Shown: piece after piece, positions 4,686-19,894 of the stretch | Layout of the letters: each line of letters starts with the position of its first letter | Position numbering within the stretch: the stretch's first letter is position 1 | Assembly (NCBI GenBank): GCA_022795735.1 | Contig: JAAWHG010000002.1 | Location: 62,001-126,000, forward strand | Origin: Oscillospiraceae bacterium | Lineage (GTDB): Bacteria > Bacillota > Clostridia > Oscillospirales > Oscillospiraceae | Length of the DNA: 64,000 nt | Reading direction: 5' to 3' | The notes under the pieces: generated by a model | Seen by the model: the letters and a program-made list of their open reading frames with translations, nothing else | Database searches by the model: none | What the model was told of the DNA's origin: nothing | Program-made: the position numbers and the translations under genes

Positions 4686-4713
4686 TTGACTTTTTCGACA
4701 AATGCGTTATAAT
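4686..4713 (+). promoter_or_regulatory. Sigma-A promoter of the dlt-like operon
   Basis: TTGACT (4686-4691), 16-bp spacer, TATAAT (4708-4713). It gives a leader of about 55 nt before the ATG at 4774. No other clear promoter is seen until the region after 16248, so it probably drives the whole envelope operon. Confidence 0.8.
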
Positions 4714-4773
4714 AACATCTGATTTTAACAGACGCGGCGCGTCGGACATCACTTGGAAGGGGGCGGAAACCAA

Positions 4774-7700
4774 ATGAAACGGATTCTTTGCGCCCTGCTC
4801 TGCCTGACGCTTCTGGCGTCATGTTCCGCCCCGGCGTCTGTTCCCACAGTGCAGGAACCTTTGCCGTCCTTACAAAGCACGGAGGAGCTGACGGCGGCGT
4901 TGGCAGCGCGGGACGGCTATCACCTCCGGGCGGTGGTGCTGCACGGAGAAGAGGGTGGGTGCTGGCGCGAAACGCTGGAGTATTTGGAACAGCCCATGAT
5001 GCTCAACCTGGAGGCCGAGGCCATGGACCTCTCGGCTGACTTCTCAGGCGCGGATGTCCTTTATTTAGATGAGAGCTTGCTTACCGAGCCCAGCTGGGAC
5101 ACAGCGGCGCGGCAAATTATGGATTTTACAAAAGCGGGCGGTGCTGTGTTGGTCCCCAATGCCTTTTCCGGGGCGTTTCCCGCCGGATACTTGGGCGCGT
5201 CGGATTTTGAACCGCTGACCTTCCGGGAGGAGATTGTCCTTCCCGCCGGCTTAGGGGACCTATCCGATCTACAGGGACTGATTGCCGACTTCCACGCGCT
5301 TTACAAGGGCTTTACAGACTACGAGACACTAAAAGGCCGCGATTACGGCGTGGCTATGGTTCCCGATACGGCAGTCCCGCTGGTCTTGTCTGACGACGGC
5401 GGGCTGGCGCTTTACGCGGTCAACCGCTGGGGAGAGGGCGCGGTGCTGTTTACCAACCCGCTGCTGCCCAACGGCTATGTCCAGGGCGACCTGTCCATGG
5501 CCCCCCGGGACCTGTCTCAGCCCGCCTTTGCCTCCACCGTCGCTTCCTGTAACCAGCTCTTCCTCAGCGAGTGGGCGGCCTACGTTTCCAAGCTGCGCTA
5601 CGGCTTCGCGTTGGACCGTGTGTTTGGCTGCTACGGCTCTCCTTCCATGTGCTGGTCTCTCCATTATGAGGAGATCACCGCGTTTGAAAACGATTCCCTG
5701 CGGCAGTTTTCCGCCCTGGCTGAAGCGGCGGGACAGATTCCATCCCTTGTTTTAATCCGCAACGCCTACCAATGGTTTGCCCGCGTTGAGACCATGACCT
5801 ACCTGCTGGGGCAGGCGGAGGGAACGCCCTTCCGGATGGACTATCAGGAGAGCGCCTATTCCTCCGGCGCCCACGTGGACAGTGGCGGACAATGGCTGAC
5901 GCAAGGCTGGCTGGAGGAGGGGGGCAGCTATTTTGACGACCACCCTGAGTTTCGTCAGCGGCTTTCCCCTTGCGCCGTCGATTATAATGGAGATGGACTT
6001 GCCGACTTCTTCTGCGGCGCGTCGGACGGCAGCGTCACCTATTATGAAAATCTGGGTATGACCGGCCTGGACGGGCGGCTCCGGGTGTCCGAGGCCCAGC
6101 CCGTTTTCACAACGGATGGTTCTCCCTTGAAGATGGACTATTATACCGCCACCGCCATGATGGATGTGGACGGCGACGGCCAGTTGGACCTGCTGGTGGG
6201 CGGTCCCGACGGCAACGTCCACTGGTACCGCGGCGACGGGACGCTCTATTTTGAACCCAAGGGCATCCTGATTGAAACCGGCTTCCAGGGGGTCAACCTG
6301 CCCGCAACGGGCGACATCGACGGCGACGGCGTGACCGATCTGGCTGTCGGCTCGGAACAGGGAATCCTGCTGATTTATTTTGGACAAAAAGTGGGCAAGG
6401 CGACCGTTTACTCTTCCAGCCAGATGGCGGCGCTGTCCCGCGACTGCGCCGACTGGGAGCTTGGTCATTGGCTGGCCCCATTTCTGACCGACTACGACGG
6501 CGATGGAAAAACCGACCTGCTTGTCGGGACCTTCGACGGCTATATCGCCCTTCTGCTTGGCAACGGAAAGGGGCAGTTCTTCTTTGACGGCTATCTCCGC
6601 TGCAACGAGAATAATTACAAAGGCAACGACCGAATCAAATTCGGTAACTTTGCCACGCCGCTCCTGCTGGACCTCAACGGTGACGGTGTGCGTGACCTGC
6701 TCTGCGGTCATCAGGAGTATGGTATGAACTATCCCATTGATTCACCCTATTTCCCACAGCGGGACAGACTACAGGACCAGATCAATTTTGCGAAAGCGCG
6801 TCACTACTATATGGGCCTTCATTTTTATACCAATTCCTACGCCTCGGAGGATCGGGAAGCTTTTGAGCTGTCGGCGCACAAAAAGGCGATGGAGGCATAC
6901 GGGATACAAACGGAGGGGATTGGCGCGAACCAGCACACCTGGTACACCTCAACCCTGGACCCGGCCCAATCCATGCGCAGTCTATGGAACGCGGGCTTGC
7001 TCTGGCAGTCTGGCTACGCGGGAGCTGGTTCCACCTATATTGCGCCCCAGATGTCGCCCGAGGCGGCGGTCTCGCTTCCCTTTTTCCTGACTAGTGAGGG
7101 AGAGCGAACCCTGCTCATGCAGAACTGCTCGGTTCTGCCTTACTGCGATGAGACCGTGAGCGACATAAGCGGCAAATACGCCGTCCCGGTTGTCGTCTAC
7201 TATCACTGCGACCTGATTTACCGTTCTGATGAGGAGGCACGGGACTATATTGAAAAGCTGTCCGTCTTCCAGCGGAAATTTGGATATAATTTTACCCGGG
7301 AAGATCAATTGATGAAGGCCAGCGCGGCGGCCTACAACCTGACTGTGGAGGTACAGGCGGCGGATGGCGGCTTCGTTATCACCCCCGGAGCGGCTTCGAC
7401 GGATTTTCCCCTCTACGACGGGGCGTTCCAGAGAGCCGCCGGGCTGCGGATTGACTTTACCGACGGACTGGAAGAAATGTTCACCCCCGACGCGAGGGTT
7501 TGGAAGCGGACGGCGGACGGCTTTGCCGTCGGTCTGGACGCTCCGGTGACCTTCCGCCAAGGCGGGGGAGAGGGGCAGCATGTCCTTCAGCTCAACGTCC
7601 CGGCGGAGATTGCCGGCACGGACGCCGGTGCGGAAATTTCCTTTACCAGAGAGGGAATGCTCCAGGCAGTGGTGTCGGGCAACGCGGAGACGGCGGACGA

Positions 7701-7794
7701 GGGATGGACGGCGGACCATTACGACGGCAAGACCGTATTCACCAAATTCGGCGGCCCGACGGCGCTGCACGTGCGATATATGGGAGGAAATTGA
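4774..7794 (+). CDS. Large FG-GAP/VCBS repeat lipoprotein
   Basis: The 1006-residue product is exported and lipid-anchored: a basic N terminus, a hydrophobic core and the lipobox LLASC give a modified Cys17. Residues about 40-250 form an alpha/beta domain without a recognised catalytic motif. Residues about 400-650 hold five calcium-binding FG-GAP-type repeats, each with a DxDGDG-like loop (DYNGDGLADFF, DVDGDGQLDLLVGG, DIDGDGVTDLAVGS, DYDGDGKTDLLVGT, DLNGDGVRDLLCG). The C-terminal part is of unknown fold. ATG at 4774 follows a GGGGGCGG ribosome site; the upstream TTG at 4753 would delay the signal peptide. It heads the dlt-like operon and may be a surface scaffold or polymer-handling protein (inference). 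Confidence 0.85.
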   Translation: MKRILCALLCLTLLASCSAPASVPTVQEPLPSLQSTEELTAALAARDGYHLRAVVLHGEEGGCWRETLEYLEQPMMLNLEAEAMDLSADFSGADVLYLDESLLTEPSWDTAARQIMDFTKAGGAVLVPNAFSGAFPAGYLGASDFEPLTFREEIVLPAGLGDLSDLQGLIADFHALYKGFTDYETLKGRDYGVAMVPDTAVPLVLSDDGGLALYAVNRWGEGAVLFTNPLLPNGYVQGDLSMAPRDLSQPAFASTVASCNQLFLSEWAAYVSKLRYGFALDRVFGCYGSPSMCWSLHYEEITAFENDSLRQFSALAEAAGQIPSLVLIRNAYQWFARVETMTYLLGQAEGTPFRMDYQESAYSSGAHVDSGGQWLTQGWLEEGGSYFDDHPEFRQRLSPCAVDYNGDGLADFFCGASDGSVTYYENLGMTGLDGRLRVSEAQPVFTTDGSPLKMDYYTATAMMDVDGDGQLDLLVGGPDGNVHWYRGDGTLYFEPKGILIETGFQGVNLPATGDIDGDGVTDLAVGSEQGILLIYFGQKVGKATVYSSSQMAALSRDCADWELGHWLAPFLTDYDGDGKTDLLVGTFDGYIALLLGNGKGQFFFDGYLRCNENNYKGNDRIKFGNFATPLLLDLNGDGVRDLLCGHQEYGMNYPIDSPYFPQRDRLQDQINFAKARHYYMGLHFYTNSYASEDREAFELSAHKKAMEAYGIQTEGIGANQHTWYTSTLDPAQSMRSLWNAGLLWQSGYAGAGSTYIAPQMSPEAAVSLPFFLTSEGERTLLMQNCSVLPYCDETVSDISGKYAVPVVVYYHCDLIYRSDEEARDYIEKLSVFQRKFGYNFTREDQLMKASAAAYNLTVEVQAADGGFVITPGAASTDFPLYDGAFQRAAGLRIDFTDGLEEMFTPDARVWKRTADGFAVGLDAPVTFRQGGGEGQHVLQLNVPAEIAGTDAGAEISFTREGMLQAVVSGNAETADEGWTADHYDGKTVFTKFGGPTALHVRYMGGN

Positions 7795-7796
7795 CA

Positions 7797-9335
7797 TTGA
7801 GGATACATTCCGCAGTCCGTCTTCTGGACGAGGCGGCGGCGCGTTTCGCGGACCGCTGCGCCGTGGAGGACGAGACCGCGTCGCTGACCTATGCCCAGTA
7901 CCGGGACACCGCCCGTAAGATTGGCGCGGGCCTGCTCGCGGCGGGGGCGGTCCGGCGGCCCGTGGTGGTCTATCTGCCCAAAAGCGCGCGGGCGCTGTGC
8001 GTCTTTTTGGGCGCGCAGTACGCCGGCTGCCCTTACGCGCCGGTGGACGCCCACATCCCGATGGCGCGGCTGGACAAAATTATTGACAGCCTGCGCCCCG
8101 GCTGTATCGTCACCGACGGGACGTTGGCCCCCAATTTAGAAGGGCTGGATTTGCGGGGGGCGAAGGTTTGCCTCTACGACAGCCTTGCGGCCTCTGCGGT
8201 GGACGGGGAACGGCTGGACGCCGCCGCCGGCGCGGTGAACGACGCCGACCCGATTTATATCATGTACACCTCCGGCTCCACCGGGACGCCCAAAGGGGTG
8301 ACCATCCCGCATCGGGGTATTCTGGATTACGCGGACTGGGTGGTGAAGACCTTCGGCTTTACCGAGGAGACGGTAATGGCCGGACAGGCGCCGTTTTACT
8401 TCGACAATTCCACCTTTGATATCTACGGCTCCATCCGCTGCGGCGGCAAGCTGGTGCTGATTCCCGACGCGCTGGTGCTCTATCCGCTCCGGCTGCCCCA
8501 ATTCCTGGCCGAGAAAGAGATTACGGCTATTTTCTGGGTACCGACGGTGCTCATCAACATTGCCAACTCGGGCGCGTTGGAGGGAGCGGACCTGCCCGCC
8601 CTCCGAACGGTGGCATTCTGCGGGGAGGTCATGCCCAACAAGCAGCTGAACGTCTGGCGTAGGGCGCTGCCCGGGCGGACCTTTGCCAACCTCTACGGCC
8701 CCACGGAGATTACCGATGTCTGCTGCTACTATATTGTGGACCGGGAGTTCGCGGATTCCGAACCGCTGCCCATTGGCAAAGCCTGCGAAAATATGCGCGT
8801 TTTGATTTTGCGCGAGGACGGCACGGAGGCGGCGGCAGGGGAACAGGGGGAGCTGTGCGTACTGGGCTCCGGTGTTGCATTGGGGTATTGGAACGCGCCC
8901 GAGCTGACGGCCCGCGCATTTTGCCCCAACCCAGCCAACCGGGCTTGGGGAGAACGGATGTACCGTACCGGTGATCTGGCTTTCTGGGACGGAGACGGTC
9001 TGCTGCAATTCTGCGGCAGGCGGGACAACCAAATCAAACTCAAGGGCAACCGTATTGAGCTGGGAGAGCTTGAGACGGCGGCAATGTGCGTCGAAGGGGT
9101 GGAAAACGCGGCGGCGGTCTTTGACAAGGAGCGGGAACGGATTGTGCTCTTTGTGGAGACCCAAGGAACCCTCCCGTTACGGCGGTTCAACCTGGAGTTG
9201 AAAAAGCACATCCCGCAGTATATGCTGCCCGGGCAGTTGGTTCCCATGGAAAAGCTGCCCCACACGCCCAACGACAAGATTGACCGGCAGGCCCTCAAGG
9301 CGAAGCTGGACGGGGAGGGGAGCGAGCATGTATAA
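7797..9335 (+). CDS. DltA-like amino acid adenylating enzyme 1
   Basis: This 512-residue ANL-superfamily ligase should adenylate an amino acid and load it onto the carrier protein encoded downstream. Visible motifs: P-loop YTSGSTGTPKGV (about residue 157), FDNSTFDIY with the aspartate that binds the amino group, FCGEVMP with Cys275, YGPTE (about 300), YRTGD (about 388), GRRDNQIKLKGNRIELGE, and the catalytic Lys of NDKIDRQ near 493. Length and order match DltA. Cys275 aligns with the DltA cysteine reported to help select D-alanine, so D-Ala is the likely substrate. The start is TTG at 7797, 9 bases after GGAGG; it begins 2 bp after the lipoprotein stop. A paralogue follows directly. Confidence 0.88.
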   Translation: MRIHSAVRLLDEAAARFADRCAVEDETASLTYAQYRDTARKIGAGLLAAGAVRRPVVVYLPKSARALCVFLGAQYAGCPYAPVDAHIPMARLDKIIDSLRPGCIVTDGTLAPNLEGLDLRGAKVCLYDSLAASAVDGERLDAAAGAVNDADPIYIMYTSGSTGTPKGVTIPHRGILDYADWVVKTFGFTEETVMAGQAPFYFDNSTFDIYGSIRCGGKLVLIPDALVLYPLRLPQFLAEKEITAIFWVPTVLINIANSGALEGADLPALRTVAFCGEVMPNKQLNVWRRALPGRTFANLYGPTEITDVCCYYIVDREFADSEPLPIGKACENMRVLILREDGTEAAAGEQGELCVLGSGVALGYWNAPELTARAFCPNPANRAWGERMYRTGDLAFWDGDGLLQFCGRRDNQIKLKGNRIELGELETAAMCVEGVENAAAVFDKERERIVLFVETQGTLPLRRFNLELKKHIPQYMLPGQLVPMEKLPHTPNDKIDRQALKAKLDGEGSEHV

Positions 9336-10824
9336 CGTTGTGGAGCTGTTGGAGCGGGCTGCGTCCCGGTTCCCGGACCGCCCCGCGCTGGAGGACGACA
9401 AAGAGGTTATCGGTTATGCCCTCCTCCGGGAGCGCAGCCGGAGCGTTGCGGCGGCTCTGCTGAAGCTGGGGCTTGACCGCCGTTGTCCGGTGGCGGTTTT
9501 CCTGCCCAAATCGGTATCCGCCGTTGTGGTGTTCTACGCCGCCATGTACTGCGGCCTCCCCTATGTGCCGCTGGATTACGACGCCCCGGACGGACGGCTG
9601 CGGGCTACTTTGCAAAACTTACAGCCCGGCTGCATTGTCACAGACCAGAAAGGGGCGGCAGCCCTGCCGGAGGCCGCGTGTCCTATTTTACTGATTGATT
9701 CGCTTGCGGGAGACGGAGGCGAAGCGGTGGACCGGGCGGCGGAGGCTGTGACCGACCAGGACCCAGCTTATATTATGTACACGTCCGGCTCCACCGGGAC
9801 CCCCAAGGGGGTGATTATCCCCCACCGGGGCGTGTTGGATTACGCCGCATGGATTGCGGAAACGTTTTCCCTGAACGAGCGGTCGGTCACCGGCCTGCAA
9901 TCGGGGTTTCACTTTGACAATTCGGTGTTCGACCTCTATGCGGCGGCGGCCTGCGGGGCCAAGGTGGTTATCATCCCGGAAATTCTGTTCCGCTACCCCG
10001 GCAAGCTGCTGGCTTATCTGGCGGAGAAGGCGGTCACCTGCATTTTCTGGGTGCCCACGGTGATGATTAGTACCGCCAACTGCGGGGCGTTGGACGAGGT
10101 CAGGCTTCCCAAGCTTGAGACGGTGGTGTTTGCCGGAGAGGTCATGCCGAACAAGCAGCTCAATGTCTGGCGGAGGGCGCTGCCCGGGCGGGTTTTTGCC
10201 AATCTCTACGGGCCCACCGAGGTTACGGTGGACTGCACGTGCTATATAGTGGATCGGGAATTTGCGGACGGCGACCCGCTGCCCATCGGCTACGCGCGGC
10301 CCAACATGCGGGTGCTGGTGCTGCGGGAGGACGGCGGGGAAGCCGCCCCCGGCGAGACGGGAGAGCTCTGCGTCCTGGGGAGCCAATTGGCCCTTGGTTA
10401 TTGGAACAACCCGGAGGAGACCGTCCGCGCCTTTGTGGACAATCCGCACAACGCCGCCTTTCCCGAGCCGATGTACCGCACCGGCGACCTGGTCAGCCGG
10501 GACGCGGACGGCCTGCTTTGGTTCCAGGGCCGAAAGGACAGCCAGATCAAGCTTCGGGGAAACCGAATTGAGTTGGGCGATGTGGAAAACGCGGCCCGCA
10601 GCGTCCCCGGGGTGAAGAATGTGGCGGCTCTTTTTGACGTGGAAAACGAACGTATTGTGCTTTTCCTTGAGACGGCGCAGGAGGTACAGCTCCGGCGCTT
10701 CAATCTGGAATTGGGCAAATATCTGCCCAAGTATATGCTGCCCGGACGGCTGGTCTGTATGGAGGCCTTGCCCCTCAACGCCAACCGCAAGATTGACCGG
10801 GTCTTGCTCAGGACAATGCTATGA
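9328..10824 (+). CDS. DltA-like amino acid adenylating enzyme 2
   Basis: This 498-residue paralogue of the preceding ligase has the same motifs: YTSGSTGTPKGVIIPHRG, FDNSVFDLY, NLYGPTEVT, YRTGDLV, GRKDSQIKLRGNRIELGD and NANRKIDR with the terminal-domain lysine. The pocket differs: the DltA-type cysteine is replaced by alanine (Ala269, FAGEVMP), and the residues after YGPTE are VTVDC instead of ITDVC. It probably activates a different small amino acid, or the same one with relaxed chirality (inference). ATG at 9328 overlaps the previous gene by 8 bp. Tandem duplication is the simplest origin. Confidence 0.87.
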   Translation: MYNVVELLERAASRFPDRPALEDDKEVIGYALLRERSRSVAAALLKLGLDRRCPVAVFLPKSVSAVVVFYAAMYCGLPYVPLDYDAPDGRLRATLQNLQPGCIVTDQKGAAALPEAACPILLIDSLAGDGGEAVDRAAEAVTDQDPAYIMYTSGSTGTPKGVIIPHRGVLDYAAWIAETFSLNERSVTGLQSGFHFDNSVFDLYAAAACGAKVVIIPEILFRYPGKLLAYLAEKAVTCIFWVPTVMISTANCGALDEVRLPKLETVVFAGEVMPNKQLNVWRRALPGRVFANLYGPTEVTVDCTCYIVDREFADGDPLPIGYARPNMRVLVLREDGGEAAPGETGELCVLGSQLALGYWNNPEETVRAFVDNPHNAAFPEPMYRTGDLVSRDADGLLWFQGRKDSQIKLRGNRIELGDVENAARSVPGVKNVAALFDVENERIVLFLETAQEVQLRRFNLELGKYLPKYMLPGRLVCMEALPLNANRKIDRVLLRTML

Positions 10825-11330
10825 ATACGGAATACGCGGTCCGAGACGCCAGGGAGGAAGAGCTGGACACCCTCCTGACCCTGTACCGCTCCTACTATCG
10901 GGAGCTAAAGGGCTGTGGTATAAACTACGAGCTGGACGAGGCCCAGCTTCCCGACGTCCTGCGGGCAAGAATGAAATCCCGCCTGCTTCTGGCCGCCGTG
11001 GCCGAGGGAGAGGATGGGAGACTGGTTGGCTTTGCCTTTTGCGCCATTTCCCGTCTGGGGCGGGAGCACCGGTGCCGGGGTAAGAACAGCGTCGGCTTTT
11101 TACAGGAGCTGTACGTCGTCCCAGAGGCCCGACGCCACGGTCTGGCAAGCCGTCTGGCGGACTATGCCAGGGACTGGCTTTGGGGCAACGATATCACAAC
11201 CCTGAGCCTGGAAGTCCTGTGCGGCAACCCGGCGGGGCTGGCCTTTTGGAAACGGCAGGGTCTGGTCCCCGTGGCGACCATCTGCCAACAAAACTTGGAC
11301 GAAGGAGACCACCCATGGAAAAGAATGTGA
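10821..11330 (+). CDS. GNAT family N-acetyltransferase
   Basis: The 169-residue product has the GNAT fold. The acetyl-CoA-binding motif A is seen in LQELYVVPEARRHGLASRL (about residues 95-113; a variant of the R/QxxGxG/A loop), followed by the motif B region NPAGLAFWKRQGL. The start overlaps the upstream ligase by 4 bp (ATGA) and its end overlaps the carrier gene by 16 bp, so it is made together with the aminoacylation machinery. GNAT genes are not part of ordinary dlt operons. It might acylate the amino group of the attached amino acid or a carrier-bound intermediate (inference). Confidence 0.82.
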   Translation: MNTEYAVRDAREEELDTLLTLYRSYYRELKGCGINYELDEAQLPDVLRARMKSRLLLAAVAEGEDGRLVGFAFCAISRLGREHRCRGKNSVGFLQELYVVPEARRHGLASRLADYARDWLWGNDITTLSLEVLCGNPAGLAFWKRQGLVPVATICQQNLDEGDHPWKRM

Positions 11331-11572
11331 AAGATACCCTGCGTGATTATATCATCCAATATGCCTCCATTGAGCCGGACGACCCGGATTTCTCCGATGA
11401 TGTGGACCTGTTTGACTATGGCTTCGTGGACTCCCTCGGGGCCACCGAAATCGTTCTCTTTCTGGAGGAGACCTTTGGCATTGAGATTACCCAGGCCGAC
11501 ATTACCCTTTACCCAATGAACACCATTGATGAGATTGCCGGGGTAGTGGAGCAGAAGCTGCAAGAAAAATAA
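11315..11572 (+). CDS. DltC-like acyl carrier protein
   Basis: The 85-residue acidic four-helix carrier has the phosphopantetheine attachment site DSLG at Ser40 (FVDSLGATEIVLFLEETFGI). It should receive aminoacyl groups from the two ligases upstream as thioesters and hand them to the MBOAT protein. DltC and this protein share size and the LFDYGFVDS-type lead-in. Only one carrier is present for two ligases. ATG at 11315 lies inside the end of the GNAT gene, with AAGGAG 8-9 bases upstream. Confidence 0.9.
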   Translation: MEKNVKDTLRDYIIQYASIEPDDPDFSDDVDLFDYGFVDSLGATEIVLFLEETFGIEITQADITLYPMNTIDEIAGVVEQKLQEK

Positions 11573-11596
11573 ACTGCTGGAAGCGGGGAGAAGCCT

Positions 11597-12742
11597 ATGT
11601 GGTATTTGCAAGTTGATACCCTCCTGCTGACGTTGGCCCTGGCGGTCCTCTTTGGAATTGGAGGGTGGCTGGCGGCCCGGCGGCGGCCGGGGCTGCGGAT
11701 TACCCGCTTTCTGCTGGTGGCCGGCTTGGCGCTGCTGGCCCATGTGTCGCCCAAGCTGGCGGTGTTCTACTTCGCTTACGCGCTGGGAAGCTATCTGCTC
11801 ATCCGCCTGCTACGGGCGGCACGGCATGGACGGCGGGTTCTGTTTGTACTGTTCTGCCTGTTGGACGCGGCTCCCTTTTTCTATGTCCGGGCTGCGGCGT
11901 TGGTTCCGGCCCTGCCGGCGTTCGCCGTTATTGTGGGCTTTTCATATAATATGCTAAAGGCCATTGACGGCCTGTTCTTTGTCTACTATACAGGAAGGCA
12001 TATCCCGCTGCTGACCTACGCCAACTTTCTGCTATTTTTTCCGGTGATTACCGCCGGGCCCATCTTCCGTTACCGCGACTTCCAAAAGCTCTACGAGCAC
12101 CCCGTCCTCCCCGATGCGGAAGGGGTGGAACGGCAGGTCAAGCGGCTGATTCGGGGCCTGTTCAAAAAGCTGGTTCTGGTGGTGTGGTTCCGGGGGGCGC
12201 TGGACTATGTGCTGACGCTGGGACAGCATTTCTATGCCACGCTAGCGCTGGTAATTTTAAGCTATGCCTTGCTCTACCTCGATTTATCGGGCTACAGTGA
12301 TATCGCAATCGCCGTTGGGTCATTCACTGGAATCGCCGTCCCGGAGAATTTCAAGAAACCGTTATCCGCTGCCTCCTTCACCCAGTTCTGGCGGCGGTGG
12401 CACGTCACCCTCAGCGAATGGATTCGAGAGCACATTTTCGTGGTGGTCAACGGCAAGCGGCTAAACCGGTACGCCTCCGCTCTGATCGGCCTGCTGACCA
12501 TGCTGGTTATGAGCCTGTGGCACAATTTCAGCTTGCTGGCGGTGTGCAACGGCCTTTATATGGGCGGCTTGCTGGCCCTTGAAAACCTCTTCGGCCTGAC
12601 CACGGTAGACCGAAAGGCCAAAAAGCCGGTGCTTTATCTGCGCCGCGCGGCGGTTGCGTTTCTCTTCGGAATTAACGCCATGTTCTTCCTGTTGGAGCCG
12701 CCGCAGCTCCTGACGGCATTGGGAGGGTTGTGGAAGCTATGA
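11597..12742 (+). CDS. DltB-like MBOAT membrane O-acyltransferase
   Basis: The 381-residue polytopic protein of the membrane-bound O-acyltransferase family has about ten hydrophobic segments. Signature residues are FWRRWHVTLSEWIREHIF (about 262-279) and the catalytic histidine His309 in MSLWHNF. In the dlt pathway DltB takes the aminoacyl group from the carrier and passes it across the membrane. The following genes encode DltD-like and DltX-like partners, which supports the same role here. The start is ATG at 11597 with GGGGAG upstream; the stop overlaps the next start by 4 bp. Confidence 0.92.
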   Translation: MWYLQVDTLLLTLALAVLFGIGGWLAARRRPGLRITRFLLVAGLALLAHVSPKLAVFYFAYALGSYLLIRLLRAARHGRRVLFVLFCLLDAAPFFYVRAAALVPALPAFAVIVGFSYNMLKAIDGLFFVYYTGRHIPLLTYANFLLFFPVITAGPIFRYRDFQKLYEHPVLPDAEGVERQVKRLIRGLFKKLVLVVWFRGALDYVLTLGQHFYATLALVILSYALLYLDLSGYSDIAIAVGSFTGIAVPENFKKPLSAASFTQFWRRWHVTLSEWIREHIFVVVNGKRLNRYASALIGLLTMLVMSLWHNFSLLAVCNGLYMGGLLALENLFGLTTVDRKAKKPVLYLRRAAVAFLFGINAMFFLLEPPQLLTALGGLWKL

Positions 12743-13626
12743 AGATGTTAAACGCCCTCCGCCGGTGGCGGTTCCCCTTGCTGCTTGCGGTCTTCTTTGT
12801 GGGCCTGGACTGGATGGCCTCGGCCTTGCTGGGGCCGTGGCTGGTGTCCAGCGGGCGGTTTATCCTCAATGATTATGAGATCGTCCGCCGTGCCCATCCC
12901 GAGGCGGTTTGGGATCAGGTTTTCTTTGGTAATTCCATCGTCATCTCCGCCTATCTGGAGGAGGAGAGCGAGAGCGGCTATGTGAATCTGGGCGTCGATT
13001 ACGGCGTGGTGACCGACCTTTGGGATATGCTACGCAAGAAGGAAATCCAGGTGGGCAGCGAGCTGGTGATTGGCCTCAACGACCTGACCCTCTACGACGA
13101 GTTCCCCACCAATCCCGCCTATCCCTGGCATCGAGAGCCGTTGGAGCCCTTCTTGTATTTCTACCGGGACCGGCTCAGGCTGTTGGTGGAAGAGACGGCC
13201 GCGCAGGCGTTTACGGGGTTTGTTCCGGAATACGGGAAGTACGCCGGTCAGGAACGGGCGTACTATTACGGCTCCCTCTCGCAGACCAAGCTGGACGAAA
13301 AGGCAGCGTCGTCGCCCTATCTGGCGCTGCCTATGGAGGACTTTGAGGAAAACTTCGCCGCCCTGGAGGAGATTGCCGCCTGGTGTGGGCGAAACGGCGT
13401 CCGGCTGCGGCTGTTGTGGATGCCCTTAAACCCGGATTTTCAGGTTCCGAAATCCACGCTGGCGGTCAAAGCGCGGACCGAAGCGCTGTGCGCGCAGTTG
13501 GGGTTGGAGTTCAAGGATTGGAGCGGCGCGCTGGACCGGGCCTGCTTCTACGACTTCGGCCACCTGAATCATGAATACGGCGCACATGTTTTTACAAAGG
13601 AGATCGACCAATGGCTGCTATCCTGA
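12739..13626 (+). CDS. DltD-like SGNH-fold envelope protein
   Basis: The 295-residue protein has one N-terminal signal anchor (residues about 12-31) and an extracytoplasmic SGNH/GDSL-like domain. The nucleophile Ser66 lies in FFGNSIV, and the Asp/His pair is Asp272-x-x-His275 in FYDFGHLNHE near the C terminus. DltD uses this triad to transfer D-Ala to lipoteichoic acid. This protein is shorter than classical DltD (about 400 residues) and only distantly similar, so the acceptor may differ. ATG at 12739 overlaps the MBOAT stop (ATGA); its own end overlaps the next small gene by 16 bp. Confidence 0.85.
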   Translation: MKMLNALRRWRFPLLLAVFFVGLDWMASALLGPWLVSSGRFILNDYEIVRRAHPEAVWDQVFFGNSIVISAYLEEESESGYVNLGVDYGVVTDLWDMLRKKEIQVGSELVIGLNDLTLYDEFPTNPAYPWHREPLEPFLYFYRDRLRLLVEETAAQAFTGFVPEYGKYAGQERAYYYGSLSQTKLDEKAASSPYLALPMEDFEENFAALEEIAAWCGRNGVRLRLLWMPLNPDFQVPKSTLAVKARTEALCAQLGLEFKDWSGALDRACFYDFGHLNHEYGAHVFTKEIDQWLLS

Positions 13627-13754
13627 AGCGTTGGAAAGCTTTTCTGAAAACCCCGCCGGGGCGGCTGCTGGAAGCCCTGTGCTACGCGGCGCTGCTGGCG
13701 TTGATCTTAATTTATTTTACCGGAAACGGACAGTTTATTTACGAGGCGGTATAA
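13611..13754 (+). CDS. DltX-like small membrane peptide (47 aa)
   Basis: Residues 1-18 are basic (MAAILKRWKAFLKTPPGR), residues about 19-37 form one transmembrane helix, and the protein ends in QFIYEAV. DltX of classical dlt operons has the same build: about 50 residues, one helix and a C-terminal FIYNEF-type motif whose tyrosine has been proposed to carry the D-alanyl group between DltB and DltD. Here Tyr44 is kept. It overlaps the DltD-like gene by 16 bp and ends 1 bp before the synthase gene. In most known operons dltX precedes dltA, so its position after dltD is unusual. Confidence 0.75.
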   Translation: MAAILKRWKAFLKTPPGRLLEALCYAALLALILIYFTGNGQFIYEAV

Positions 13755-13755
13755 C

Positions 13756-16248
13756 ATGAGTGAAACAAAGAAACCCCGTCAATTTTATGGGAGGCTTTTC
13801 CTCTTCTGGTTTGGGGCGCTGTTGCTGTTGGAGCTGACGCTGCATCTGACGGTCTACCACGGAATGACCCTGCGGATTCTGACAAGCCTCCTGTTTGACA
13901 TGTCGTTTGCGGCCGCGCTGACCCTGATTACCTCCTTTTTCCGGAAGGAGCGGATCAGCTATGTGCTCCGGTACGTGTTGGCGGCGCTGCTGTTTGTCCT
14001 TTACAGCGTGCAGTTGATTTACTACCGGGTTTTCGACACCCTGCTCTCCCTGTCCTACATGGGCATGGGCGGGGACGCGATTGACAACTTCATGCCCACC
14101 ATCCTTCGCGCCATTGGCGCGAGCTGGCTGCAGCTGCTGCTGTTTGTCCTTCCCCTTCCCATTCTCTTTTTGCTGCACCGCCGGGGGGTTTTGCCCAACG
14201 AGAGAATGTCCGGGCGCGGTATGCTGATGGCGGTGGGTACTGTGCTGGTGCTCCACATTTTGGGCATGCTCCCGATCTGGATTGCCGGCAAGACCAGTAC
14301 GATTTACCGGACCTACAAGGACCCCTACGGAGACGTGACCCTTCAGTGCGAATACTTCGGCCTGCCAACGGCGGAACGTTTGGAGCTGGGCCGGCTGATG
14401 AAAGGAACGGCGGGGATCAACGACGAAGCAATGGACTTGGGCGAGACCAAGGAAGAGGTGCCCGAGGACGTCCTGGAGCTGCCGGACCGAAACATCATGC
14501 CGGAATTGGATTTGACCGGTCTGGACCTGCTGACTGAAGATAAAAATATCATTCAGCTCAACGGGTATTTTGACAAGCTGTCGGGAACCCTGCGCAATGA
14601 ATACACCGGCAAATTCGCCGGGTATAACCTGATTCAAATCTGTGCCGAATCCTTCTCGCCCTACATGGTGGACCCGGAGATCACACCTACCCTGTACCGG
14701 CTGACCCATGAGGGATTCCTCTTTGAGAATTTTTATTGCAGCTTCCCCAGTATGACCACCAACGGCGAATACAGCCTGTGCATGGGTCTGATGCCCGACA
14801 TGAGCCGGGTGAGCTTCGCCACCTCCATGTACAACTATGTTCCCTTTACGCTGGGCAACCGTTTCTCCGAACTGGGCTTGAAGCCCAAGGCCTACCACAA
14901 CAACATCGCCACCTTCTACAACCGCATCAATACCCACCCGAATATGGGATACACCTTTAAGGCGGTGGACTTTGGCCTGGACATGGAGAAGGGCTCGCCG
15001 GCCTCCGACCTGGAGATGATGCGCAAAACCGTGGACGACTATATTGATGAGGAGCAGTTTATCGTCCACTATATGACCTATTCGGGCCACTGCGACTACA
15101 ACTTTGTAGACAACGACATGTGCATTAAAAATGAGAAGCGGGTGGAGGGACTGGACCTGCCCGAGGACTTGAAGGCATATTACGCCTGCCAATTGGAGTT
15201 GGAAGACGCCATGACCTATTTGCTGGGCCGGCTCGAAGAGGCCGGTGTGGCCGATAGAACGGTCATTGTCCTCACCGGCGATCACTACCCCTACGGTCTG
15301 AGCAACGAGTCTTATGAGCTGCTGGCTGGCGACGCGGCGAAGGACGACCCCTTCTGGCGCTACCGCAACAGCTTTGCCCTGTGGAACGGCGGGATGGAGG
15401 AGCCTGTTTCGGTACAGGAATATTGCTGTACCCAGGACATCCTGCCCACGGTGCTCAATCTGTTTGGAATGCCTTACGAATCCCGTTTTCTCACCGGTAT
15501 GGATGTGCTGTCGGAGGGAATTCATGTGGCCATCCTCCAAGACGGCAGCTTCCTGACCGACGCGCTGACCTATGACGCCCACGACGGCAAGGTGGAATGG
15601 AAGAAGCCGAAGGAGGATTATCCCGATGGCTACGACCAGGAGATGATTCGGACGGTAAAGAACCAGTTTTCGGTGTCAGCTTCCATCCTGCGGAGCGACT
15701 ATTACCGCTTTGTCTTCACCTCGCTCGGTCTTGCCGACCCGGAGCAGGAGCAGGAACGCTATTACAGCTACGCCGATACGGTGGGAACCTGGTACGCCGA
15801 GGATGTGGAGATTCTGACCGGCTGTGGCGTGCTGACCGGCAACCATGGCAGCTTCAATGGCGAAGATCCATGTACCCGGGCCAACTTTGTCGTCATGCTG
15901 GCGCGGGCCCTGGAGCTGGATGTCGGCGGCGCGTCGGCCCCCCCGTATACCGATATCCAGGAAACCGCCTGGTATTATGACAGCCTGGTTGCGGCATGGA
16001 GAGCGGGTATCCTGGAGGAGAGCGGCACATTCCGCGCCAATGCCCCCATCACCATGGAGGAGGCCGAGCGGATGATGACCGCAGCCGCCAAGTACACCTA
16101 TGTAAATGGCGGCGCAGATTGGGTGGAATCGGTGATCGAGGACGCGAAGAGCCGCGCTGGGGCGGAAGAGATTGACGAAAACAGCCTTTCCAGAGGCTTC
16201 ACCGCCGCCTTGATTTCCCCCATGACGATAACGGTTGACGAGGAATAA
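13756..16248 (+). CDS. LtaS-like sulfatase-fold synthase with C-terminal SLH domains
   Basis: The 830-residue protein has about five N-terminal transmembrane helices (residues 10-190) and an extracellular sulfatase-fold domain (about 290-620). Catalytic features of the LtaS/phosphoglycerol transferase family are visible: Glu in CAESFSPYM, the nucleophile Thr334 (or 335) in SMTTNGEYSL, and the metal ligands of LTGDHYPYG. Residues about 670-780 contain two S-layer homology-like modules: WYAEDVEILTGCGVLTG with TRANFVVMLARAL, and AWYYDSLVAAWRAGILEE with PITMEEAERMM. LtaS polymerises glycerolphosphate onto a lipid anchor; SLH modules bind pyruvylated wall polymers. It is last gene of the dlt-like operon and may make its polymer (inference). 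Confidence 0.85.
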   Translation: MSETKKPRQFYGRLFLFWFGALLLLELTLHLTVYHGMTLRILTSLLFDMSFAAALTLITSFFRKERISYVLRYVLAALLFVLYSVQLIYYRVFDTLLSLSYMGMGGDAIDNFMPTILRAIGASWLQLLLFVLPLPILFLLHRRGVLPNERMSGRGMLMAVGTVLVLHILGMLPIWIAGKTSTIYRTYKDPYGDVTLQCEYFGLPTAERLELGRLMKGTAGINDEAMDLGETKEEVPEDVLELPDRNIMPELDLTGLDLLTEDKNIIQLNGYFDKLSGTLRNEYTGKFAGYNLIQICAESFSPYMVDPEITPTLYRLTHEGFLFENFYCSFPSMTTNGEYSLCMGLMPDMSRVSFATSMYNYVPFTLGNRFSELGLKPKAYHNNIATFYNRINTHPNMGYTFKAVDFGLDMEKGSPASDLEMMRKTVDDYIDEEQFIVHYMTYSGHCDYNFVDNDMCIKNEKRVEGLDLPEDLKAYYACQLELEDAMTYLLGRLEEAGVADRTVIVLTGDHYPYGLSNESYELLAGDAAKDDPFWRYRNSFALWNGGMEEPVSVQEYCCTQDILPTVLNLFGMPYESRFLTGMDVLSEGIHVAILQDGSFLTDALTYDAHDGKVEWKKPKEDYPDGYDQEMIRTVKNQFSVSASILRSDYYRFVFTSLGLADPEQEQERYYSYADTVGTWYAEDVEILTGCGVLTGNHGSFNGEDPCTRANFVVMLARALELDVGGASAPPYTDIQETAWYYDSLVAAWRAGILEESGTFRANAPITMEEAERMMTAAAKYTYVNGGADWVESVIEDAKSRAGAEEIDENSLSRGFTAALISPMTITVDEE

Positions 16249-16255
16249 AAAGCGT

Positions 16256-16298
16256 CAGGCGCGGACGGCCCAATCGGCTGTCCGCGTCTGTATTTTCC
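16256..16298 (+). terminator. Terminator of the dlt-like operon
   Basis: A GC-rich stem of about 16 bp with some G-U pairs (16256-16271 with 16275-16290) and a short loop, followed by TATTTT. It lies 8 bp after the synthase stop. Confidence 0.75.
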
Positions 16299-16417: not shown

Positions 16418-17755
16418 GTGGGGAAATGGAAGCGGATTTTGGCGTTTTTGCTGTCGCTGTGCTGCGCGCCCTCCTTATCCGGCTGCCTGTTTCGCTCCGG
16501 CGAGGAGCTCTACGCCCTGCCCCGGCAGCCGCAGGAACTCTATGAGCTTCAAAAAGCCATTGACGCACTGATGACTCCCGGCACGGTCTGTTTGGCCCCC
16601 ACAGCTGGGGCCAACCGCCAGCCGATTCAGCTGGCCGATCTGGACGGCGACGGGCTGGATGAGGCCATCGTTTTCCTCAAGACCGGCGGCGACATGCCCC
16701 TCAAGACCTGTATTTTGGACCAGGCAGAGGACGGGCTGGCGTGTATCGCGACCATTGAGGGGGACGGGACCGGCTTCGCCACTGCTGAATATGCCCAGAT
16801 CGACGGCAAACCGGGTCTGGAGATCATCCTAGGCCGGCAGGTCAACGACCAAGTGCTCCAGTCCATGAGCGTCTACGCCCTGCGGGAGGGACGCGCGGTA
16901 GAGCTGATGAGCGCCAGCTATTCGGCCTATACCACCTGTGATTTGAACAATGACGGCAACACCGATCTCTTTTTGATCCGCCTCAACGCGGAGGAGGGCG
17001 GTGGGGTTGCCGAGTACTACCGCTACACCGGAGAACAGATCGAGCGGGAGCCGGAGGCGTCCATGTCCCTGGGAGCCGGAGCGGTCAAGCGGATTCTCAC
17101 CGGAAAGGTGGCGGGCGGCGTACCGGCGGTCTTTGTCGCCAGCCTCTACGGGGAGGACAGCATTGTCACCGACATTTTCGCTCTGCGCGGCAAATCCTTT
17201 TTGAACATCACAACCGCCGGCGCGGCGGGCACCAGCGCGGGGACCGTCCGCAATTACTATGTCTACGGCACCGACATTGACCGGGACGGCGTGATTGAAC
17301 TGCCGCAGCCCATCCAGCTCCCATCTCGGGGCGGCGCAGAGGACGCATACTGGATCATTGAATGGTACAAGATGGACCTCTATGGCCGCTGTACCCGGGA
17401 GACCACCACCTATCACAACTATTCAGGCGGCTGGTATGTGACCCTGCCCGATGAATGGAGCGATACGTTGACCATCTCCCGGAGCGCGGAGGTGTCGGGT
17501 GTCCGGGGGTATGTCTTCTCCCATTGGCACGGCGCCGAGCGGGAGCCGGAGGAGATCTTTACAATCTATCCCTTCACCGGCGAGGGCCGGGACGCGCTGG
17601 CGACGGGGGACGGCCGCTTTCTACTGAAGGGGAAGGGGGACGTCAGTTATGCCGCGTCCCTGGGGACTGCGGCGGAGGCGGAAAACCTCACGCCGGAAAC
17701 TTTAAAGGAAATGTTTAACTTTATTTGGGTTGATTGGAATACGGGGGAGGTTTAA
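16418..17755 (+). CDS. FG-GAP/VCBS-type lipoprotein
   Basis: The 445-residue exported lipoprotein has lipobox LSGC (Cys23). Three acidic, Ca-binding-like loops recall FG-GAP repeats: ADLDGDGLDEAIVFL (about residue 70), CDLNNDGNTDLFLIRL (about 175) and TDIDRDGVIELPQPI (about 285). The start is GTG at 16418, 8 bases after GGGAGG. It ends 5 bp before a response regulator gene, and similar lipoprotein-regulator-kinase arrangements suggest it may modulate the sensor kinase in the envelope (inference). No enzyme motif is seen. Confidence 0.8.
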   Translation: MGKWKRILAFLLSLCCAPSLSGCLFRSGEELYALPRQPQELYELQKAIDALMTPGTVCLAPTAGANRQPIQLADLDGDGLDEAIVFLKTGGDMPLKTCILDQAEDGLACIATIEGDGTGFATAEYAQIDGKPGLEIILGRQVNDQVLQSMSVYALREGRAVELMSASYSAYTTCDLNNDGNTDLFLIRLNAEEGGGVAEYYRYTGEQIEREPEASMSLGAGAVKRILTGKVAGGVPAVFVASLYGEDSIVTDIFALRGKSFLNITTAGAAGTSAGTVRNYYVYGTDIDRDGVIELPQPIQLPSRGGAEDAYWIIEWYKMDLYGRCTRETTTYHNYSGGWYVTLPDEWSDTLTISRSAEVSGVRGYVFSHWHGAEREPEEIFTIYPFTGEGRDALATGDGRFLLKGKGDVSYAASLGTAAEAENLTPETLKEMFNFIWVDWNTGEV

Positions 17756-17760
17756 ACCAA

Positions 17761-18447
17761 ATGAAAAAGGTTTTAATATTGGAGGACGAGGTCAGTATTC
17801 GCAGCTTTGTGGTCATCAACCTCAAGCGGGCCGGATACGAGGCGATTGAAGCGGGGACCGGGGCGGAGGCTTTGGAGAAGCTCAAGGAGAATCCGGACGC
17901 CGGCGTCGCCATTTTAGACATCATGCTGCCCGACATTGACGGCTTTGAGGTCTGCCGGACCATTCGGGCCACCAATAAGTCCATCGGCATTATTATGCTG
18001 ACGGCCCGTACCCAGGAGATGGACAAGGTGACCGGCCTGATGACCGGGGCGGACGACTATGTGACCAAGCCCTTTTCCCCGGCCGAGCTGACCGCCCGGA
18101 TTGACGCTCTATACCGCCGCATCGGCCCCGACGGCGGAGGGGAGAGCGGGGAACAGCAGCAGGGGCCCTTCCTGCTCAACACCCGGAACCGGACGCTGGA
18201 AAAGAACGGAAAGCGAATTAAGCTGACCCAGGTGGAGTATGCCATCATGAAGCTGTTCATGCAGAACCCGGGCCGCGCCCTGTCCAGAGAGGATATCCTG
18301 ACCAGCGTTTGGGGGCGCGACTTTGACGGAGAGCTGAAAATCGTGGACGTGAACATCCGCCGCCTTCGCATAAAGATCGAAGACGACACCGCCAACCCCA
18401 CCTATATCACAACGATCTGGGGGTTTGGCTACAAGTGGGGCGTATAA
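17761..18447 (+). CDS. OmpR/PhoB family response regulator
   Basis: This 228-residue DNA-binding regulator has a receiver domain at residues 1-120: acidic cluster LEDE, phosphoacceptor Asp in AILDIMLPDIDG, Thr in MLTART and Lys in VTKPFSP. A winged-helix output domain follows (about 135-228) with LTQVEYAIMKLFMQNPGRAL and the DVNIRRLRIKI recognition region. ATG at 17761 follows GGGGGAGG by about 10 bases. The next gene encodes its likely partner kinase. Targets are unknown; the upstream lipoprotein and dlt-like operon are candidates. Confidence 0.95.
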   Translation: MKKVLILEDEVSIRSFVVINLKRAGYEAIEAGTGAEALEKLKENPDAGVAILDIMLPDIDGFEVCRTIRATNKSIGIIMLTARTQEMDKVTGLMTGADDYVTKPFSPAELTARIDALYRRIGPDGGGESGEQQQGPFLLNTRNRTLEKNGKRIKLTQVEYAIMKLFMQNPGRALSREDILTSVWGRDFDGELKIVDVNIRRLRIKIEDDTANPTYITTIWGFGYKWGV

Positions 18448-18466
18448 TCCAAAGAGCGGACAGGCG

Positions 18467-19894
18467 GTGAGCGCATTGAAGAAGCGGACCGGCATCCAGA
18501 AGCGCTGGATGTTCAACAACCTGAGCATTGTCATTTTGCTGGTGTTGGCGGTTGTGGTGGCATTCCCTCTGGCCTTTACCATGTACTACTACTCCAATAT
18601 GCAGTCCGGCTTGGAGGCCAAGGCCAAGACCACCACCGACTTCTTCGGCAACTATCTGGGTCAGAGCTACAACGAATATTACCAGTCCTGCATCAACGTC
18701 GCCCACAACTTTGAGGATAAAAATACCCTGGAGCTTCAGTTTATCAGCCCGAGCGGGCGTCTGGTGGCCTCGTCCTACGGCCAATGGGCCGGGAAGGGGC
18801 CCGGAACCAGCGATGTGGATGCCGCCATCGAAACCAAGCGGCTGGCGATTTTTAACGGGACGAACCCCGCCACCGGCGAACGGATTATGGCGGTTTCCAG
18901 CCCGATGATCTATACCAACGGCGAGGTCATCGGCGTCCTGCGCTACGTCACCAGCCTCAAGAACGTGGGACGGCAGATTCTGATGCTGACCGCCGTGACG
19001 GTGGTGGTGGGCGTGCTGTTTATCCTCCTGATAATGTACAACAGCCGCTATTTCATCCGCTCCATCATTGAGCCGGTATCGGAAATCACCGAAACGGCCA
19101 AGCGTATTTCCGCCGGCGGCTATGGCGTGCAGATTAAAAAGAAGTTTGACGACGAGATCGGCGAGCTGACCGACACCATCAACGACATGTCGGTCAAGCT
19201 GGGGCAGGCCGAGCGGATGCAGTCGGAGTTTGTCTCCTCGGTCTCCCATGAGCTGCGGACGCCGCTGACCGCCATTTCAGGGTGGGGCGAGACCATTTTG
19301 TCAGCTGAGACAATGGACCCGGTGGAGACCCGGCGGGGGATGGTTATCATCCTGCGGGAGACCCGGCGGCTGACCGACATGGTGGAGGAGCTCTTGGAGT
19401 TCACCCGAATGCAGGACGGCCGGTTTACCCTCAATGTGGAGCCGGCGGACCTCCAGGCCGAATTTGAGGACACTGTGTTTATGTATGGCAGCCGCCTCAA
19501 GCAGGAGGGCATTGAGCTGGTCTACCTGGAAAACGACGACGTTTTGCCCGAAATTCCCTGTGACATCAGCCGGATGCGTCAGGTGTTCCTGAACATTCTG
19601 GACAATGCAGCCAAGCATGGCGGCGAGGGGCGCAGGATTACGGCGGAGATTCGCCAGGAGGGTGAATACGCGGCGGTACGCATCCGCGACTTCGGCCCCG
19701 GCATTCCGGAGGACGAGCTGCCCCACGTGAAGATGAAATTCTATAAGGGTAGCACCAAGGCACGGGGAAGCGGCATCGGTTTGGCGGTCTGTGAGGAGAT
19801 CGTCACTATGCACGGCGGACAGCTGGTGCTGTCCAACGCCGAGGGCGGCGGCACATTGGTGACAATCCGTCTGCCGATTGGCGAGGGCGCGTAA
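18467..19894 (+). CDS. Sensor histidine kinase
   Basis: The 475-residue membrane kinase has TM1 at about residues 18-40, an extracytoplasmic sensor region to about 175, TM2 at about 178-200, a HAMP linker, an H-box SHELRTPLTAISGWGETIL with the phosphorylated His, and an ATPase domain with the N-box NILDNAAKHGG, DFGPGIPEDELPHV and GSGIGLAVCEEIV. The start is uncertain: GTG at 18467 or TTG at 18476; starts further upstream overlap the regulator gene. It directly follows the OmpR-type regulator and forms a two-component pair with it. Confidence 0.92.
   Translation: MSALKKRTGIQKRWMFNNLSIVILLVLAVVVAFPLAFTMYYYSNMQSGLEAKAKTTTDFFGNYLGQSYNEYYQSCINVAHNFEDKNTLELQFISPSGRLVASSYGQWAGKGPGTSDVDAAIETKRLAIFNGTNPATGERIMAVSSPMIYTNGEVIGVLRYVTSLKNVGRQILMLTAVTVVVGVLFILLIMYNSRYFIRSIIEPVSEITETAKRISAGGYGVQIKKKFDDEIGELTDTINDMSVKLGQAERMQSEFVSSVSHELRTPLTAISGWGETILSAETMDPVETRRGMVIILRETRRLTDMVEELLEFTRMQDGRFTLNVEPADLQAEFEDTVFMYGSRLKQEGIELVYLENDDVLPEIPCDISRMRQVFLNILDNAAKHGGEGRRITAEIRQEGEYAAVRIRDFGPGIPEDELPHVKMKFYKGSTKARGSGIGLAVCEEIVTMHGGQLVLSNAEGGGTLVTIRLPIGEGA

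Follow-up and report, generated by a model that had tools for sequence, protein, structure and literature searches.

Nine genes of a 64-kb window (the window being the whole stretch of DNA analyzed) probably encode a second, paralogous Dlt-type machine that uses two amino acids and acts on a surface polymer, not necessarily lipoteichoic acid. The Dlt-type system itself is real, conserved, and apparently undescribed, and the mechanism proposed for it below is plausible. Literature searches for this gene set in open-access papers found no description of it, in agreement with the original prediction, which knew of no described system with this exact set.

Gene content, distribution, and gene orders

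The nine genes are tightly packed between 4774 and 16248 and run in one direction, in the order FG-GAP lipoprotein, ligase 1, ligase 2, GNAT, carrier, MBOAT, SGNH protein, 47-aa DltX-like microprotein, and LtaS-SLH. Family assignment by Pfam and NCBIfam gave FG-GAP, two AMP-binding (amino-acid adenylation subfamily), GNAT, PP-binding, MBOAT, and sulfatase plus SLH matches. From the lipoprotein to LtaS the junctions are -4, -8, -4, -16, +24, -1, -16, and +1 nt, and a gap of 169 nt separates LtaS-SLH from the next gene. As the original prediction had stated, each named gene was found at its coordinates and strand, and one promoter-like site at 4686, the best scoring in the region by consensus matches only, precedes a near gap-free run (junctions of -16 to +24 nt). 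The features are as follows.

4686–4713, + strand: promoter-like site TTGACT-16-TATAAT, 11/12 matches (consensus only)
4774–7794, + strand: lipoprotein gene (A), lipobox LLASC, with predicted Rossmann-like domain, PelA/CE4-like barrel interrupted by an FG-GAP propeller (about 356–653), and C-terminal beta-sandwich (Pfam/NCBIfam, AF2 model, match to PelA 9cgy, conserved residues)
7791–9335, + strand: adenylation ligase 1, pocket DNFFACLDVK, TTG start overlapping the preceding stop (Pfam/NCBIfam, pocket, tree)
9328–10824, + strand: adenylation ligase 2, pocket DNFFVALVDK (Pfam/NCBIfam, pocket, tree)
10821–11330, + strand: GNAT acyltransferase, accessory (Pfam/NCBIfam)
11315–11572, + strand: single carrier protein, phosphopantetheine Ser40 in DSLGA (PP-binding match; DS in 46/46 homologues)
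11597–12742, + strand: DltB-like MBOAT, His269 and His309 (family match; both His in 44/44)
12742–13626, + strand: DltD-like SGNH protein, N-terminal TM helix, Ser65/Asp271/His274 (AF2 model, Foldseek; triad in 42/42)
13611–13754, + strand: 47-aa DltX-like microprotein (X), ending in the acyl-shuttle motif FIYEAV (motif; PF12459 only at E=0.076)
13756–16248, + strand: LtaS/LtaP-like phosphoglycerol transferase with C-terminal SLH repeats (sulfatase and SLH matches; lineage-specific partner)
16256–16290, + strand: terminator-like hairpin, 15-pair stem, the best terminator-like site of the region (consensus only)

In surveys of 150 and later 400 family genomes, close relatives of ligase 1 were identified in about 20 genomes, and they lay beside the same genes wherever the full stretch was read. 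A scan of named genomes with a profile of the lipoprotein gave 59 loci, with hosts among the Oscillospiraceae, Flavonifractor sp. An306, Agathobaculum desmolans, Candidatus Avoscillospira, Scatomorpha, other Clostridia, and Lachnospiraceae MD329. Flavonifractor sp. An306 has both ligases, A. desmolans ATCC 43058 a single one. The same gene order, for which the original prediction had proposed to search, was thus found in many genomes. The core common to the loci consists of the ligase(s), carrier, MBOAT, SGNH protein, microprotein, and lipoprotein, and because this core recurs in many genomes and in several gene orders, the cluster is not a chance assembly. LtaS and GNAT fall outside the conserved core.

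Three layouts were observed. Type 1, as in the window, reads lipoprotein, ligase 1, (ligase 2), (GNAT), carrier, MBOAT, SGNH protein, microprotein, (LtaS), the genes in brackets being optional. Type 2 (nine loci) reads ligase 1, ligase 2, carrier, MBOAT, SGNH protein, microprotein, lipoprotein. In the split layout (10 loci) the microprotein and lipoprotein genes stand alone, and a ligase 1, ligase 2, carrier, and MBOAT block was found elsewhere in the genome in 8/8 genomes fetched, with the SGNH gene where the contig was long enough. An unusual gene order was seen in L151, a single-ligase cassette with lipoprotein genes on both flanks. Within the genus the cassette is accessory: six congeners keep the downstream histidine kinase and none of them (0/6) has a close cassette ligase, and the five that were fetched carry the FG-GAP gene, the two-component genes, and the DUF1385 gene in the same order with other genes upstream. 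Just downstream of the cassette (window positions 16418–19894) lie a second FG-GAP lipoprotein and a two-component system, which are kept in congeners without the cassette.

Relation to the canonical dlt operon

The same genome carries a canonical dltA-dltB-dltC-dltD set on another contig (L079 4490–8681, contig 64), with a DltX-like frame ending in FVYSEF beside dltD. Its products score 484 (DltA, NF003417), 410 (DltB), 55.6 (DltC), and 270 bits (DltD), all of which pass; by TIGR01734 the DltA falls below the cut-off (479 vs 559.85 bits), and it lies above that of NF003417 (476 bits). The window proteins stay below every curated cut-off. The two ligases reach 298/290 and 305/293 bits with these DltA equivalog models (TIGR01734, NF003417), the MBOAT 156 bits with TIGR04091 (DltB, cut-off 375), and the carrier 24.7 bits with TIGR01688 (DltC, cut-off 52.35), while the SGNH protein has no match to TIGR04092 (DltD, cut-off 150). 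The microprotein gives 13 bits (E 0.076) with PF12459 (DltX, cut-off 25), a model that matches, even weakly, just 4/9 members. In the tree, the window ligases lie far from canonical DltA. Since a canonical dlt exists elsewhere, the window proteins score below the cut-offs, and the ligases are far from DltA, the cassette represents a second, paralogous machine, and the proposed expansion of the dlt operon itself was not borne out. Labels such as DltA-like to DltX-like describe Dlt-like proteins correctly but do not place any of them in the curated Dlt families. Near the canonical dlt there is also a separate AlgI-like MBOAT ending in FIYQQF (L079 13459–14793).

Judged from its sequences, the cassette would nevertheless work like Dlt. 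It shares with canonical dlt (DltX, DltA, DltB, DltC, DltD; teichoic acid D-alanylation) a ligase, a carrier, an MBOAT, an SGNH protein, and a microprotein with a shuttle motif, and the catalytic residues are conserved. The Dlt-type set was found in full: the carrier Asp-Ser is invariant in 46/46 homologues, His269 and His309 of the MBOAT in 44/44, and Ser65, Asp271, and His274 of the SGNH protein in 42/42, and the FxYxxF-type shuttle has FxY near the end in 44/44 distinct microproteins, of which 39 end in FxYxx[FWY]. The window microprotein, ending in FIYEAV, does not keep the last F. For the SGNH protein neither Pfam nor NCBIfam gave an informative match, and its assignment comes from the fold; its AlphaFold model (pLDDT 88) matches SGNH hydrolases in Foldseek, the significant matches including DltD (6o93), and it has both the SGNH hydrolase fold and the block I/V residues. 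Unlike canonical dlt, with which it coexists in one genome, the cassette has two ligases with other pockets and a PelA-like FG-GAP lipoprotein.

In DltX, the tyrosine of the shuttle motif FXYXXF carries D-Ala from DltB to DltD, and in MBOAT-SGNH O-acetylation the acyl group likewise goes from the MBOAT to the tyrosine of a C-terminal FxYxxF and on to the SGNH protein (PMC12148441). PatA/PatB and AlgI-type O-acetylation systems share this route with the cassette, whose expected donor is a loaded carrier and not acetyl-CoA, and whose shuttle, unlike theirs, is a separate microprotein, or, in a few loci, is fused to another polytopic protein. In L042, L146, L192, L198, and L221 the motif forms the C-terminus of a polytopic membrane protein of 400–520 aa (e.g., L042 12056–13258 and L146 12140–13678); these proteins are possibly GT-C-like, and PMT_2 weakly matches one of them (E 0.012).

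The PelA-like lipoprotein

FG-GAP repeats are present in the lipoprotein as claimed, but the protein contains more than repeats, as its AF2 model (pLDDT 78) has a PelA-like (CE4/CE21) barrel, a Rossmann domain, and a C-terminal domain. The predicted model matches PelA (9cgy) with Z 21.5 and rmsd 6.5 over 516 residues, spanning 46–1003; PelA is the only match with this span and lies well above the other matches that extend beyond the propeller. The match covers the Rossmann, barrel, and C-terminal domains, and the FG-GAP propeller is predicted to interrupt the barrel. On this predicted model the lipoprotein has the PelA (CE21) fold. Profile searches against PDB sequences and Pfam matched propellers only, so the link to PelA comes from the model. 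E299, E339, H683, H721, and E843 are invariant in 59 lipoprotein homologues, and H367, H297, and H811 nearly so. The metal/base motif of PelA consists of H526/D528/D530 and H600/H604 (PMC12022489); in a comparison of conserved residues, H297, E299, E/D300, and H367 are conserved and the first His of HxxxH apparently is not. The lipoprotein thus shares with PelA/PelADA, an exopolysaccharide de-N-acetylase (CE21, PMC12022489, PMC13254593), a predicted fold of Rossmann, barrel, and C-terminal beta domains. It differs in the propeller inserted in the barrel, the missing glycosidase domain, apparently altered metal motifs, a lipid anchor, and its link to an acyl-shuttle microprotein.

The lipoprotein gene lies directly 3' of the microprotein gene in 18 loci, and this adjacency suggests that the two form a functional pair. 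Seven genomes with a lipoprotein homologue have only AlgI-like MBOATs, and thus the lipoprotein may have other roles, or these genomes are incomplete. In two loci (L213 6632–9846 and L222 3124–6358) the microprotein-lipoprotein pair follows speD-, Orn/Lys/Arg decarboxylase-, and spermidine synthase-like genes, which reflects either a polyamine link or chance.

A narrower form of the best explanation, overlapping with it, is that a Pel/galactosaminogalactan-type exopolysaccharide is decorated, with the lipoprotein acting as de-N-acetylase or glycosidase and aminoacyl groups being added to its product. The PelA match across 46–1003, the almost invariant His/Glu set, and the 18 microprotein neighbors are consistent with this. 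Pel synthase genes are absent from the operon (a count that covers the operon only), the HxxxH metal pair is apparently not conserved, and a fold match does not give a substrate; we regard this narrower form as unlikely.

Two ligases with different pockets

The ten specificity positions were read in GrsA numbering after alignment on motifs, in a family alignment including the genome's own DltA. In most loci the pocket of ligase 1 is DNFFxCLDVK. That of ligase 2 varies with the layout: type 1 loci have DNFFVALVDK or DNFFAALVDK, whereas DNFFLAMDIK prevails in the type 2 and split layouts. The canonical DltA of the same genome has DVCVVCAVLK. The type 1 ligase 2 sequences form one clade in the first tree (100/99), and type 1 and type 2 ligase 2 sequences together form one clade in a wider tree (98/91). 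Some single-ligase lineages branch before the duplication and others nest inside ligase 1; the latter have therefore lost ligase 2. By these sequence comparisons, the two ligases, with different conserved pockets, come from one old duplication, and the single-ligase forms are partly secondary losses. Recent redundant copies are ruled out by the tree and the pockets. Decoration with one or two amino acids, as originally proposed, is strengthened by pockets that have been kept different since the duplication, and both ligases could still load the same residue.

Other ligases of this kind were also observed. In the type 2 cassette of L191, a third ligase (pocket DAFFTVLVAK) separates the carrier from the MBOAT. 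In L049–L055, other stand-alone adenylation ligases (pockets DLKIIGLVDK, DAKCAGLGMK, and DGKQLGLVDK) are linked to AlgI-sized MBOATs, some with carriers, and the family probably contains more systems of this sort.

LtaS-SLH, GNAT, and alternative explanations

The best solved match of LtaS-SLH is LtaP (4uop), with which the sulfatase-type catalytic Thr and Gly-Asp-His are aligned. It shares this catalytic domain with the lipoteichoic acid synthases LtaS/LtaP and, unlike them, has C-terminal SLH repeats (SLH matches are kept in several orthologues), reaches only 90.8 bits with the LtaS model NF053595 (cut-off 970), and has only a lineage-specific link to the cassette. In the 400-genome survey a full-length LtaS-SLH homologue was present in 6/6 two-ligase and 0/15 single-ligase genomes, and 10/400 genomes of the family had LtaS-SLH without a close match to a cassette ligase. 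Among 41 cassette genomes, window included, it was found in 10/10 with a Val-Asp type 1 ligase 2 and in 0/31 of the others (this count and that of the survey are uncorrected for phylogeny), two of which have a shorter LtaS, 36–39% identical. LtaS adjoins the cassette in the window, L185, L188, L192, L198, and L221. This pattern makes LtaS a lineage-specific partner and not a core part; as a defining part of the system it was rejected, being missing beside most cassettes and in most cassette genomes. For the same reason (31/41 cassette genomes without LtaS-SLH) the operon need not make a glycerol/ribitol-phosphate-type polymer, and that part of the original prediction is unsupported. The suggested N-acylation is optional at most, because GNAT is present in only 15/59 loci. 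Elsewhere in the genome (L080 5641–8586, contig 11) there is an XrtG-associated glycosyltransferase fused to a phosphoglycerol-transferase domain, 982 aa.

These data also bear on the improbable explanation that the cassette is an ordinary dlt duplicate, both ligases loading D-alanine and the lipoteichoic acid made by the neighboring LtaS being D-alanylated. In its favor, the operon includes LtaS, its MBOAT, SGNH protein, and microprotein resemble their Dlt counterparts, and by our alignment Cys at code position 301 of ligase 1 corresponds to Cys269 of B. cereus DltA, the D/L-selecting residue; with Ala in its place the D/L preference is relaxed (PMC4176424). Against this, both ligases fall far outside canonical DltA in the tree, both carry an Asp in the pocket (at 330 or 331) in place of the Val/Leu of the canonical DltA of this genome, most cassette genomes lack LtaS-SLH, and a canonical dlt is already present. 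A small NRPS-like pathway, in which ligases, GNAT, and carrier make an (N-acyl) dipeptide or aminoacyl metabolite for export or lipid attachment by the MBOAT/SGNH pair, is quite improbable, since the resemblance of stand-alone adenylation domains, carrier, and GNAT to NRPS-like clusters, and of the ligases to NRPS A domains (their best structural sequence matches), is set against the absence of condensation and thioesterase domains, the usual lack of GNAT, and a DltX-like shuttle and conserved SGNH triad that indicate extracytoplasmic transfer.

Proposed mechanism and significance

For the two-amino-acid Dlt-type machine, the order of reactions is proposed by analogy to Dlt. Ligases 1 and 2 would activate different amino acids (or enantiomers) by adenylation, and both would load the same single carrier. 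The MBOAT would then carry the aminoacyl group across the membrane to the tyrosine in the FIYEAF-type motif at the microprotein C-terminus, and the microprotein would pass it to Ser65 of the SGNH protein, by which the surface polymer would be esterified. The PelA-like propeller lipoprotein, in the outer leaflet, may bind the polymer and trim or deacylate it as a dedicated partner of the microprotein. In lineages with the Val330-Asp331 pocket of ligase 2, the SLH-tagged LtaS probably provides the acceptor or lengthens it. Tentatively, the two amino acids may both be other than alanine, share carrier, MBOAT, and shuttle, and be placed on a polysaccharide processed by the lipoprotein in a system widespread in gut Clostridia, the second amino acid being linked, in one lineage, with a phosphoglycerol polymer anchored to the S-layer; this fuller version is possible but doubtful as a whole.

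Amino-acid esters on surface polymers determine the charge of the envelope, and they influence both immune recognition and how well the cell withstands host peptides. To our knowledge, only D-alanine esterification by dlt is well understood in Gram-positive bacteria. Many gut Clostridia have a machine of this kind, which in this genome comes on top of an ordinary dlt operon. It apparently attaches one or two different amino acids to one carrier and then to a surface polymer handled by the PelA-like lipoprotein, and the envelope chemistry of these organisms is probably richer than known. If common gut genera (Flavonifractor, Agathobaculum, Avoscillospira) have a second machine with two ligases and one carrier, this would be a new surface chemistry, and the cassette makes it possible to test directly how a single carrier and a single shuttle deal with two substrates.
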